DNA from: Ignisphaera aggregans DSM 17230
Lineage (GTDB): Archaea; Thermoproteota; Thermoprotei_A; Sulfolobales; Ignisphaeraceae
DNA length: 64,000 nt
Direction: 5' to 3'
NCBI GenBank assembly: GCA_000145985.1
Contig: CP002098.1
Coordinates: 1-64,000 of the forward strand
Made by a program: the position numbers and the translations under genes. Positions 6,856 to 53,818 of this stretch are shown here, in pieces (position 1 is the stretch's first letter; each line of letters starts with the position of its first letter). The notes below the pieces were generated by a model, which saw nothing but the letters and a program-made list of their open reading frames with translations, searched no databases and had not been told where the DNA came from.

Positions 6856-7761
6856 CTATAGAATATATGGACATATTAGTGGACTGATATCTATAACCTT
6901 TATCCATTTTGGAAGAGATATTTTCTGTTCAATGGTATTCGAGATAATAAGTTCTTTTAGCCCCACTCTTTCTAGATTATCAATACTTTTACTAGAGAGA
7001 AAAGCATGTGAAACTATAGCTATTATATGTTTTGCACCAGCACTATATAGTGTGTCTACAGCTTTAGCTAATGTACCACCAGTACTAATTATATCATCAA
7101 CTATTGCTACAGTTTTTCCATAAATATCAAGTTCCTTTGTATTAACCCTAATTTCACCTGTTACTCTATCTCTATATTTATCTAAATAATCCAAACCTAC
7201 ACCCAACCCCTCTGCTACAATCTTTGCCCTATGTAGAGCACCTTTATCAGGAGCTACAACAAACTCTATCTTACTCTCAGCATATTTAGCCATAAATAGA
7301 TGAGGTAAAATGTTAATGAGCCTAAATTCTAGTCTACTAAATGCTTCAGGAGAATGAACATCTATAGCAACTATAGTGTTAACACCATATATCTTTAACC
7401 CTTGATATAATGCATTTATGCTTATAGGCTCTCCTACCAAGAATCTCTTATCCTGTCTTGCATAAGCTACATATGGAAGAATTAAAGCCTTCACCTTTCT
7501 ATCCAGTCCCTTCACAGCTTCAATAGCTAAATACAACTCAACAATCTTTCTATCCTGTTCTGGATATAAGGATTGCGCTACATAAATTTCTTGGTCTAAT
7601 GCATCAGGAAGTCTTAAGTACTGTTCACCATCTGGGAAAATCTTTGTATAAGGCTTTACTATATCAGCTTTACACTTACTGCGAAGACCCTCCTCTAAAT
7701 CTCTAGTAATACCACTTAGAGATAAGATTTGGACCATATAGCCACACACTAAGACACTCAA
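6856..7761 (-). CDS. prs: Ribose-phosphate pyrophosphokinase
   Basis: Makes PRPP from ribose 5-phosphate and ATP, feeding nucleotide, histidine and cofactor synthesis. The 301-aa protein shows the catalytic flexible-loop region DKGALHRAK (about 190) and the PRPP-binding loop VDDIISTGGT (about 238-247). Family members usually begin just before the first beta strand, so the ATG at 7737 (MVQILSL) may be the true start. RpiA at 49318 supplies the substrate. Confidence 0.92.
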   Translation of the reverse strand: MSVLVCGYMVQILSLSGITRDLEEGLRSKCKADIVKPYTKIFPDGEQYLRLPDALDQEIYVAQSLYPEQDRKIVELYLAIEAVKGLDRKVKALILPYVAYARQDKRFLVGEPISINALYQGLKIYGVNTIVAIDVHSPEAFSRLEFRLINILPHLFMAKYAESKIEFVVAPDKGALHRAKIVAEGLGVGLDYLDKYRDRVTGEIRVNTKELDIYGKTVAIVDDIISTGGTLAKAVDTLYSAGAKHIIAIVSHAFLSSKSIDNLERVGLKELIISNTIEQKISLPKWIKVIDISPLICPYIL

Positions 7762-8355
7762 ATTACTTGAGATATATAAAATTATTTCTAGAAATTATTC
7801 TTCTATTTCAAAGAATAGATATTAGATTGTAATAGAATAAGAAGTATTGAATAATGAAAAGTTATAAGATAAGAATGAAACCCGTTGCGTTCCTCTAACA
7901 CCATTTAAAACTAAAATTGATATAGTAAGCCATACTAGGTTATCTAGTTACATGCTCAGCATATCATATTCATGATGATAGCGTTTCCCAGACCACGGCA
8001 CTCCTAGATTCCTATTTATTCTCAATTCCGTGGTCTGGGTTAGCCCTCAGTGTGGTATCATTAGCTTTAACCACACCTCATGGGGCTCTGTCGAGGTGAA
8101 CGCCACGCACCTCCCATCTGAGCTACGTATCATCCCCAAACCCTCACAGCATAGCTGATCACAGGGCTGATGGAGTCAATCTATAATTTAAATCATCACT
8201 TAAGTACTTAAGAGCTATTCACGGTATTTAAGCTTTACACTACCCCAGAAACAGCCTTTGTATAAAAATTTATTCTTCATTATATAACTCTTACTCTATA
8301 GATATTCTAGTTGTAGATGTTATGGATATTAGATGCTTAAGGAAGGTGTTTTACA
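7762..8355. other. Intergenic stretch between prs and the radical SAM gene
   Basis: The stretch has no protein gene. Its core (7965-8175) is the GC-rich multi-hairpin segment listed separately; the edges are AT-rich and should carry the promoters of prs (minus) and of the radical SAM gene (plus). Confidence 0.5.
7965..8175 (-). ncRNA. Candidate structured non-coding RNA or decayed IS200/IS605 end
   Basis: About 210 bases of clearly higher GC than the flanks, between divergent prs and radical SAM genes. It contains a perfect 12-bp hairpin (987-998 with 8028-8039 after 7000/8000), nested AGCCC/GGGCT (8042-8046/8083-8087) and GTGTGGT/ACCACAC (8050-8056/8070-8076), GAGGTG/CACCTC (8093-8098/8108-8113), and CCCT/AGGG enclosing CAGC/GCTG (8141-8166). 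An AT-rich TATA-like box at about 8183-8195 favours a minus-strand transcript. No SRP or RNase P hallmarks are present. A decayed TnpB/omega-RNA end is the main alternative. Confidence 0.4.
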
Positions 8356-9228
8356 ATGATAGCATCTATAAGAATAACAAATGTTGAGAAAATACCTCTA
8401 TCTTTATGCTGTATTGGTGGTTTAGCATTAGTTTTAAATTTTATTGAATGTCCATTAAATTGCGAAGTTTGTCCATGGGAATCTAATATTAGTAGAAGAA
8501 GTGCTAGGATATTAAAGTTGGATTATGATCTAGTCGATAACTATATAAAGAGGTATAACCCTGATATACTATTCTTCCATGGAGCAGAACCCTATGAGAA
8601 GGAATTAGTGTCAGAAATTTTGAGAAGGGCCTATGAACATAAATATTCATTGCACTATGGAATTAAAGCCAATGCTGAATACCTAAAGCAGATCTCAGCT
8701 TTAAATAAGTTGTATAATATTGCTAAATATATCAATGTGTTATTAATAGAGATATTAGATTGGAAGGATATTATAAATCAATTGAAAAGCGTTGAAAACC
8801 TTATCTATAATAAATCTCTTCTTAGAGATATACATATTGAACTAGTATTGATTATGAGTAGTAGAGAAACTGTATCAAAATTATTGGAAAACGATATTAC
8901 TAAGATATTGAAAACATTATCAATACTTCCAATAAATATTATAACTACTTATGACTATAGCATCTACGAACTAGATAAAATAGCTAAAAATCTAAGAAAA
9001 ATATCTCCCTTAACACAATTTCCTATGGTAAATCTAATAGAGTTTTCATCAACCTTTTGTCCCTATTGCAACATGCCTATTATTGTGAGAAGTGGTGGAG
9101 TTTTAATGAAAATTTCTCTAAATAGCGATGGGAGTTGTAAATATTGTAATAAAAAAGTTGTTATGAATCCATCGATTCTTAAAGTGAAAAAAATCTATAA
9201 GATACCTATAGATATACCTATAGAATAA
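8356..9228 (+). CDS. Radical SAM protein of unknown function
   Basis: The 290-aa protein has the radical SAM cluster motif CPLNCEVC at residues 32-39, followed by a TIM-barrel-like pattern (FFHGAEP, then ELVLIMSS). The C-terminus adds two Cys pairs, CPYC (about 234) and CKYC (about 259), likely a zinc site or auxiliary cluster. The opening resembles pyruvate-formate-lyase-activating-type proteins, but no substrate can be assigned. It precedes the GPN GTPase by 24 bases, suggesting one transcript. Confidence 0.75.
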   Translation: MIASIRITNVEKIPLSLCCIGGLALVLNFIECPLNCEVCPWESNISRRSARILKLDYDLVDNYIKRYNPDILFFHGAEPYEKELVSEILRRAYEHKYSLHYGIKANAEYLKQISALNKLYNIAKYINVLLIEILDWKDIINQLKSVENLIYNKSLLRDIHIELVLIMSSRETVSKLLENDITKILKTLSILPINIITTYDYSIYELDKIAKNLRKISPLTQFPMVNLIEFSSTFCPYCNMPIIVRSGGVLMKISLNSDGSCKYCNKKVVMNPSILKVKKIYKIPIDIPIE

Positions 9229-46743: not shown

Positions 46744-47101
46744 GTCTAAGTTTTAAGGTTGAAGTCTCTAGCTAGGGTTCGGGTCTGAACATCACTCTTA
46801 ATCACTTTTAGATACTTCTAATTACTTTCTTCATCCCCTCATCCATATTCCCCCACTCCCTCGGGCTTCATCGTTCACAGCAGGGGCTCTTAGGGGCGAC
46901 CCAGGCACCCCCGCATATCCTTTCCTTATTTTGATTTATTCTCTATATTTCTGCGATACTCCCTTAGGGATCCACCCAGCTTTAGGTGGATAAACCCCCT
47001 CATCGGTTCTAAGAATAGATATTTGTTTACACAGAATATAAGCTTTGTGAGTAACAGAAAGTAATTGAGAGTATCAAGAAATTATATAGTATGTGCTACG
47101 A
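46744..47101. other. GC-rich gap; possible decayed IS200/IS605 end
   Basis: From about 46840 to 46995 the gap is GC-rich with several hairpins: ATCCACC/GGTGGAT at 46970-46992, a short palindrome CCTTAGG near 46960, and GGGG/CCCC pairs near 46890-46910. Read on the minus strand, a stretch can be read SPLRAPAVNDEARGSGG, then a TGA, which resembles a TnpB tail, preceded by stops. I suspect a decayed transposon end, though a structured RNA is also possible. Confidence 0.35.
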
Positions 47102-48406
47102 CTATATCCCTGTATCTAGATCTAAATATTTTCTTATGCTATGAAACTTATTGCTCATAACATAGATTCTTCTTACATGGAATCTCCTTGGCAATATCTT
47201 TATAACACTATTATCAGCTTCTATTATCGGTATAGAAACTTTATTATCTATTATAACCCTAGGAACTACATATGGATCTTCATCAAGAATCTTTATATCA
47301 TCTACAAATAATATTATTTGATGTGGTTCTAGAAGCTCCTTAGCCTTATTAACAATACTATTAAGAATACTTACATCTCTATCATTATCTACATCAAGTG
47401 GAACATTGCTAAATTTAGATCTTTCTACCAATACCTTATACCCCTTTCTAAAGAAGAATGCCTCTATCAGCTCCTTTAAATCCTTAGGAGCATTTCTATC
47501 CCTATAAACTCTTACCATAGTACCTATAATAAAATCGTCATTCCATAAAGCTATCTCATTAGTTCTTATAGCTTTTACAATATCTTCTCTCGATTTAAAT
47601 AGCAGAGGATCGTCATAGTATTTACATAGAAGTTCATATATCTTTCTAAGCATTAGCTCATATCCAACAAGAGTTTTATGATAATACACAGCTTTATACA
47701 TATGCATTCTAGCCATATAGAAGTTTTCTAGAGCGTCTACACCCTTATCAAGTATAGCTAGATTTCCATCCCCATCAACTACTAGTGTAGCTATTATTCT
47801 ATGAAGATCTATAGAACCATATGTTACACCTGTATGTAAAGCATCTCTTATGAGATAATCCATTCTATCTACATCTAGATCACTAGAGAGAAGCTGATTA
47901 TATAGAGGCTCCCTATATCTACCCTCCAATATAGCTATAATCCTATTGGGGTCATATCCATAGAAAGATAGTATCTCCCTTATATCCCTATTCTCACTAA
48001 TTATAACCCTAGATATCTCCTCATGACCAAGAGAAAATGTATTCTTATAGAAAGGCTCTATAGCATGACTAAAAGGAGTATGTCCAATATCATGTAGTAG
48101 AGCTGCTAATCTAAGAAGCTGAATATCGTCAGAATCATAGATATATCCCTGCTCCATAAGCCTTGTAGCTACAAGACCCATTATATACATAGTACCTAGA
48201 CTATGGCTAAAACGTGTATGTGTAGCTCCAGGATATACATACCAAGCAGTAGCTAATTGCTTTATATATCTAAGCCTTTGAAAAATTGGTGAATCAATAA
48301 TTTTAAGTTCTATCTCTGTAAGATCTATATAGCCATGAACCTCATCAAATACTCTCTTTACAACTCCACGCAACTTTCTATTCTCTTTCTCACTAGCTCT
48401 AAACAA
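47102..48406 (-). CDS. HD-domain phosphohydrolase (SAMHD1/COG1078-like)
   Basis: The 434-aa protein has the metal-binding H...HD...D pattern: THTRFSHSLGT (about 61-71), LLHDIGHTPFSHAIE (about 107-121) and SDLDVDRMDYLIRDALHTGV (about 178-197). COG1078 members are related to dNTP triphosphohydrolases. The YwgA-like gene is immediately upstream on the same strand. Confidence 0.9.
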   Translation of the reverse strand: MFRASEKENRKLRGVVKRVFDEVHGYIDLTEIELKIIDSPIFQRLRYIKQLATAWYVYPGATHTRFSHSLGTMYIMGLVATRLMEQGYIYDSDDIQLLRLAALLHDIGHTPFSHAIEPFYKNTFSLGHEEISRVIISENRDIREILSFYGYDPNRIIAILEGRYREPLYNQLLSSDLDVDRMDYLIRDALHTGVTYGSIDLHRIIATLVVDGDGNLAILDKGVDALENFYMARMHMYKAVYYHKTLVGYELMLRKIYELLCKYYDDPLLFKSREDIVKAIRTNEIALWNDDFIIGTMVRVYRDRNAPKDLKELIEAFFFRKGYKVLVERSKFSNVPLDVDNDRDVSILNSIVNKAKELLEPHQIILFVDDIKILDEDPYVVPRVIIDNKVSIPIIEADNSVIKILPRRFHVRRIYVMSNKFHSIRKYLDLDTGI

Positions 48407-53492: not shown

Positions 53493-53818
53493 TGTGGTCT
53501 GGCCCGCAATAACCCGTCTTCTGTATTAATCGCATTTGGCTAAGCGGCTCCCACCCCTTGTACGAAAACTCATCGGGGATCGGAGCCTTGCTCCCCGAAG
53601 GCTGGCCGTTTCACTGCTCCCATAAGCCTCATCATCAGGTTACCTGCTCCCCAGTTGCCTGAGGAGCCTCTCTGAATCATCTTCATCGGCCTATGGACAT
53701 GTCGTTTCTGTGCCAGTGCCCGGGGTATTACCCCGGCCCCTTGCGGGGCTTCGGCTTCGTACGGAGGACGGTGTTTCCTCACACTATGGGTGCGTAGCGA
53801 TTTGCGGGCCAGACCACA
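53493..53818 (-). ncRNA. rnpB: RNase P RNA (archaeal type A)
   Basis: Minus strand. A 17-bp P1 helix is formed by 802-818 and 493-509 (after 53000). The conserved core is visible: GTGAGGAAACACCGTCC (CR I), CAGTGAAACGGC, ACAGAAAC and, near the 3' end, AGAAGACGGGTTAT before the P1 closing strand. The length (about 326) matches archaeal RNase P RNA. It lies just downstream of Sec61-beta on the same strand. Confidence 0.95.

Follow-up and report, generated by a model that had tools for sequence, protein, structure and literature searches.

The question raised by this locus is what a GC-rich segment without a gene represents between two divergent genes of Ignisphaera aggregans, whose genome is a single contig of 1,875,953 bp. 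The window, that is, the whole stretch of DNA that was analyzed, comprises the first 64,000 nucleotides of that contig; GC content reaches 53% in positions 7981–8176, whereas the flanks have 25% and the window as a whole 35%. An initial annotation, made from the sequence alone, had marked 7965–8195 as strongly structured, had named several hairpins (including a perfect 12-bp stem and a nested pair), and had offered two identities, a stranded omegaRNA at the tail of a tnpB gene or else an undescribed ncRNA. All of the named hairpins were found where they had been placed, and the segment is GC-rich and lies between divergent genes as described; its extent proved slightly larger, 7981–8257. An identity as RNase P RNA, SRP RNA or tRNA was rejected, in line with the earlier view that it is neither of the first two, and RNase P RNA was located elsewhere in the window, at 53498–53813. 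We conclude that the segment is very probably a non-autonomous (MITE-like) derivative of an IS607-lineage TnpB transposon, carrying a complete omegaRNA/reRNA scaffold on the minus strand. Its parts and neighbors are as follows.

6856–7761, minus strand: ribose-phosphate pyrophosphokinase gene, one of the two divergent neighbors.
8356–9228, plus strand: gene for a conserved protein without a Pfam match, the other divergent neighbor.
8257–7981, minus strand: whole miniature element, ORF-less, 277 bases, aligned with 16 other ORF-less copies, ends set by script; left end AGGCTGTT at 8257, right end ...GGGAAACGC at 7981.
8223–8237, minus strand: left-end TATA-like box TAAAGCTTAAATACC, a probable promoter, with the counterpart CGATAAATTTAAATGC in other aligned copies.
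8181–8197, minus strand: second TATA-like box GATGATTTAAATTATAG; a comparable second box occurs in the G006 and G007 copies.
8141–8166, minus strand: hairpin A, kink-turn-like, from alignment A2 and covariation.
8047–8118, minus strand: tnpB 3'-end remnant, from translation, giving the peptide DGRCVAFTSTEPHEVWLKLMIPH and then a TGA stop (tail given as DGRCVAFTSTEPHEV).
7981–8119, minus strand: omegaRNA/reRNA core and terminal hairpin, covariance model R1, 144.4 bits.
8093–8113, minus strand: helix 1, GAGGTG/CACCTC, 3 of 6 pairs changed on both sides.
8042–8087, minus strand: nested helices 2 and 3, AGCCC/GGGCT and GTGTGGT/ACCACAC, with 3 of 5 and 4 of 7 pairs changed on both sides.
7987–8039, minus strand: terminal hairpin, 12-bp stem CCCAGACCACGG/CCGTGGTCTGGG with an AT-rich 29-nt loop, 7 of 12 pairs changed on both sides.
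7960–7980, minus strand: would-be guide, the 3' flank TATCATCATGAATATGATATG, placed by analogy with known TnpB omegaRNAs.

Read along the minus strand, the order is left end with TATA-like box, hairpin A, tnpB tail, four further helices and right end, and GC is conserved at both junctions (AG-GC followed by TG at the left, AAAC-GC at the right). Element boundaries were defined as the points where the alignment of copies stops. A TATA-like box on the minus strand had been noted, and both boxes listed above lie on that strand.

The minus strand of 7981–8176 folds at -75.9 kcal/mol, compared to -59.3 ± 4.4 for shuffled sequences (z = -3.8), with none of 200 shuffles as low, which bears out the earlier impression of strong structure; the plus-strand fold of the same segment gave z = -3.4. 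Across 24 core sequences 92.0% of cells were paired, and compensatory changes, which the initial annotation had proposed as a check, were plentiful, with 17 of 30 pairs changed on both sides. The observed pairing and covariation score was matched by none of 500 shuffles, and sliding the 3' partner by 1–3 columns lowered pairing to 26–48%. Unguided RNAalifold recovered helices 1–3 completely and four pairs of the terminal hairpin. In the minus-strand reading, G-U cells outnumbered A-C cells (48 vs. 29), favoring the minus strand as the RNA strand. Taken together, these sequence comparisons indicate that the RNA secondary structure is under selection. Covariation is present in hairpin A as well, weaker than in the core and with an outer stem that is shifted in one lineage. 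The pattern of this hairpin consists of a C-stem (CCC/GGG), a 3-nt bulge (TGT), GA...GA, T.T, and a GC-rich NC stem (CAGC/GCTG), with G15, A16, T29, G30, and A31 each conserved at 90% or more in alignment A2; a kink-turn is predicted from this resemblance in sequence.

Searches of Rfam at both gathering and permissive thresholds returned chance-level matches only (SNORD64, ZFAT-AS1, and mir-263), and a search with the tnpB-linked relatives of the RNA likewise returned no family. The lack of an Rfam match, together with the strong structure, is what would be expected of a regulatory ncRNA, not yet described, that stands alone and has nothing to do with transposons (an undescribed ncRNA had been the fallback of the initial annotation), but we give this reading next to no credence; it is contradicted by direct homology to tnpB-linked RNAs and by the tnpB reading frame, and the RNA is dispersed in multiple copies. 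Full-length TnpBs in genomes of the same genus end in ...INIGLRYLSADGRGVAFPSTGPHEAW, the very peptide of the window tail, and the homologous RNA overlaps the tnpB 3' end and terminates at the element right end (loci L089, L090, L094, L118, L119, and others); the window segment is therefore a tnpB 3' end with its omegaRNA rather than an unrelated ncRNA. The suspicion that the minus-strand frame was the tail of a TnpB was thus correct. A tblastn search of the I. aggregans genome (G000) with a full TnpB (P0001) matched 8023–8136 on the minus strand (E 4.4e-6), and this was the sole match to a TnpB tail; no cognate TnpB was found in the genome by tblastn. Four TnpB genes of other subfamilies are present there, three of them with full-length frames. 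Since the genome encodes these four and no cognate TnpB, we regard the window element as a derived, stranded copy, as the guess of a stranded omegaRNA had anticipated. A second miniature element, belonging to a different TnpB family, lies in the window at 46775–47106 (minus strand); it comprises a left end, a tnpB start and a right-end omegaRNA. Three TnpB copies at other places in the genome have ends that are 79–86% identical to it over 144–149 bp.

In contrast to Rfam, where nothing was found, covariance model R1 matched 127 of 229 Thermoproteia genomes, with at least 14 copies in some. A DNA pattern search of named genomes yielded 110 stretches, almost all from Thermoproteota; the few others come from bins labeled Thermococci, Thermoplasmata, Nitrososphaerales, and Baldrarchaeum and may be binning errors. 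As far as these searches go, the family is widespread in heat-loving archaea yet uncatalogued. It has two subtypes, GTGGCGTT (that of the window copy) and GTGCCGTT, and ORF-less copies occur in many genera. Among 82 distinct sites (80 loci), a tnpB frame of at least 200 aa occurs at 15, and 19 satisfy a strict definition of ORF-less copies that keep hairpin A close to the core; the left end is recognizable at 14 of these 19. The genome of 1,580,347 bp that we take to be Staphylothermus hellenicus (G107) has 17 R1 matches, hardly any of them with a tnpB frame, and the one of 1,570,485 bp that is presumably Staphylothermus marinus (G108) has only 3. Some 15 ORF-less copies in the former belong to the GTGCCGTT subtype and are accompanied by a single 444-aa TnpB (L269; loci L258–L276).

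Three recognizable copies occur in the I. aggregans genome, of which one is in the window and two lie at 717508 and 1327355; there are fragments at 135816 and 649575 as well. Every helix is intact in the window copy; of the other two, that at 1327355 is degenerate and that at 717508 lacks the terminal loop and several pairs. The fragment at 135816 (L099) has a different GC-rich scaffold, with a terminal hairpin (CCAGACCACGG/CCGTGGTCTGG) and right end nearly as in the window copy, and is possibly a chimera or another subtype. Several genomes of the same genus hold about four DNA-level copies apiece; G002 has about eight ORF-less copies and two that form the 3' end of a tnpB gene, of which one encodes 462 aa and the other contains a stop codon. 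An alignment of 17 ORF-less copies, including that of the window, revealed a common plan, with intact copies of about 255–291 bp. The first part consists of the left end AGGCTGTT, a TATA-like box GATAAATTTAAATGC, a spacer, hairpin A, and a short linker, and the second of a core (AGATGGGAG...GTGGCGTT...CTCGAC), the terminal hairpin with its AT-rich loop, and GGGAAACGC. Hairpin A lies within tnpB, about 118–121 nt upstream of the core, in tnpB-bearing copies and 11–32 nt upstream of the core in ORF-less copies of the named genomes. Linkers vary by lineage, and that of G002 resembles local tnpB sequence. From these spacings, hairpin A appears to have been retained while DNA on either side was deleted, possibly more than once. 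The copies are short, ORF-less and multicopy and keep both ends of an autonomous relative, as is typical of MITE-like elements. The segment is thus derived from tnpB as had been surmised, but with a left end and a promoter-like box of its own it amounts to more than a right end, and its ORF-less plan recurs in many genomes.

The initial annotation had pointed to the right end of an IS200/IS605 element. The link of this right end to TnpB holds, but the family is probably wrong. Sister TnpBs, about 31–40% identical to the cognate, lie 53–193 bp from serine recombinases at five loci and in further fragmented cases, whereas TnpBs of exactly the window subtype have no adjoining transposase, so that membership in IS607 rests on sisters of about 31–37% identity. 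No Y1 transposase was found in G000, G002 or G007, of which the latter two carry many near-identical copies, and a Y1 enzyme was rejected as the mover on this ground. Together, the recombinases beside sister TnpBs and the missing Y1 transposase point to the IS607 lineage rather than IS200/IS605. Mobilization of an IS200/IS605 (Y1) right end through single-stranded hairpins is consistent with a terminal hairpin near the right end and with the NCBI family name, "IS200/IS605 family accessory protein TnpB-related"; we nevertheless consider it rather improbable, since the nearest transposase-paired TnpBs have serine recombinases, Y1 transposases are absent from the three genomes, and, with its AT loop of 29 nt, the terminal hairpin does not resemble the short Y1 hairpins of IS608. 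Nearly all intact copies have GC at both junctions, and the GTGCCGTT subtype ends in ACAAACGG. This GC is compatible with a crossover dinucleotide of a serine recombinase; that of IS607 itself is GG (PMC4058570). An 80-aa frame at G000:154328 gave a weak serine-recombinase match and is possibly the remnant of a lost transposase.

The genes that flank the window element are adjacent and divergent in 15 relatives, and the covariance model found no RNA between them in any of these genomes, which identifies the element as a lineage-specific insertion. Across relatives the ribose-phosphate pyrophosphokinase gene adjoins the gene corresponding to 8356–9228, usually together with an ATP_bind_1 GTPase gene; the 8356–9228 protein has an N-terminal cysteine motif, CPLNCEVC. 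A genome search found no second match to the would-be guide with fewer than 3 mismatches, and another genomic target was rejected, with 3-mismatch matches as numerous as for a reversed-pattern control. These results bear on the possibility that the host has retained the window copy as a solo guide RNA for a function of its own, in which case the RNA, driven by the promoter it carries, would direct another TnpB or a regulator to bind at a chosen site, as TldR guides do. Its intact helices and promoter-like box, the four TnpB genes of other subfamilies (three full-length), and the terminal-hairpin sequence common to a different element at G000:135816 would all be in keeping with such a role. Against this, the insertion is absent from all 15 relatives, the guide has no second genomic match beyond those at chance level, and the other two copies in the genome are decaying (loop deletion, broken stems). 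We consider a host function very unlikely; as a transposon derivative, the window copy is most likely an inactive relic in this genome.

For the family as a whole, a course of events can be proposed in which the promoter-like box at the left end would allow transcription of the element without tnpB, and the folded transcript would comprise a kink-turn-like hairpin, a three-helix core and a terminal hairpin. By analogy with known systems, transcription would read through the right end, such that the flanking host DNA served as guide, and a TnpB acting in trans would recognize the insertion site in its element-free form. Mobilization of the element would fall to a transposase, likewise in trans. 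TnpB nucleases are relatives of Cas12, and a fold search with the cognate TnpB L160 gave TnpB/Cas12f as best matches (E 5e-13). The cognate clade (L007, L118–L136, L160, L171, L191, and L211) is unusual in its catalytic motifs, having VVVGNV, VVIGNI or VVIGDI in RuvC-II where its sisters have VLEKLG, and lacking both the canonical RuvC-II Glu and the zinc-finger Cys. The RuvC-I Asp is retained; most members also keep the RuvC-III Asp, which L120 and L171 lack (ERH). The catalytic Glu may have been relocated, with the conserved Glu of VSE[AR] as a candidate, and judging from these motifs the clade is either rearranged or nuclease-dead. The AlphaFold model of L160 (mean pLDDT 62.7, below 50 over C-terminal residues 348–453) is too weak to locate a relocated Glu.

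A broader proposal, which we put forward tentatively and with considerable doubt, is that crenarchaea host protein-free mobile guide-RNA genes, in which insertion joins a promoter and a kink-turn scaffold (possibly bound by L7Ae) to a new 3' guide, and which serve in trans a TnpB clade with a lost or relocated RuvC-II Glu that may bind or nick, not cut. If so, ORF-less copies would supply many guides for one effector, a natural dispersed guide array. The retention of the whole scaffold in ORF-less copies makes programming of TnpB in trans by dispersed solo guides testable, as it does whether guide function selects what MITEs retain, and because the cognate TnpBs consistently lack the canonical catalytic glutamate, their activity becomes a directly testable question. 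What had been an unknown structured RNA is now concrete, with a covariance model for a family that Rfam does not recognize and that occurs in more than half of the Thermoproteia genomes searched.

Both TnpB-less guide scaffolds and IS607-related MITEs are already known; no prior description of the RNA family of the window, or of the MITEs as guide-RNA genes, was found in the open-license PMC literature searched. One close comparison is with the RAGATH-18-derived reRNAs of IS607 TnpBs. As is proposed here, RAGATH-18 is a 3' guide-RNA scaffold of an IS607-type TnpB for which a kink-turn has been put forward, and 64% of RAGATH-18 RNAs adjoin an IS607 TnpB, so TnpB-less copies exist (Cell Res 2024, PMC11061315). 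RAGATH-18 is found mainly in Firmicutes and the window family in Thermoproteia; moreover, the latter has many ORF-less copies with an intact left end, and cognate TnpBs without the usual catalytic glutamate. The lack of an Rfam match here is a further difference, telling only if Rfam 15 includes RAGATH-18. In Staphylothermus marinus, a related crenarchaeon, MITEs of ~260 nt related to IS607 elements have been reported (BMC Genomics 2009, PMC2678158), which are likewise ORF-less repeats of similar length alongside IS607-family elements lacking TnpA, but which were described as inverted-repeat elements similar to the DNA that precedes tnpB rather than as guide-RNA genes. Equating the window elements with these MITEs is unsupported by the R1 matches (3 in G108). 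The omegaRNAs of IS200/IS605 elements (ISDra2 and others) also overlap the tnpB 3' end, stop at the right end and take their guide from the flank, but they have another fold and sequence and probably another transposase class, and the window RNA is uncoupled from tnpB. TldRs, which are nuclease-dead regulators, are likewise TnpB relatives with an altered RuvC active site and a guide RNA; they are single domesticated genes, whereas the cognate TnpBs here sit in multicopy elements. In one ORF-less copy of G002 (L082, C1, about 101990), the right end abuts the first base of an apparent tRNA gene, such that its would-be guide is the 5' end of the tRNA.
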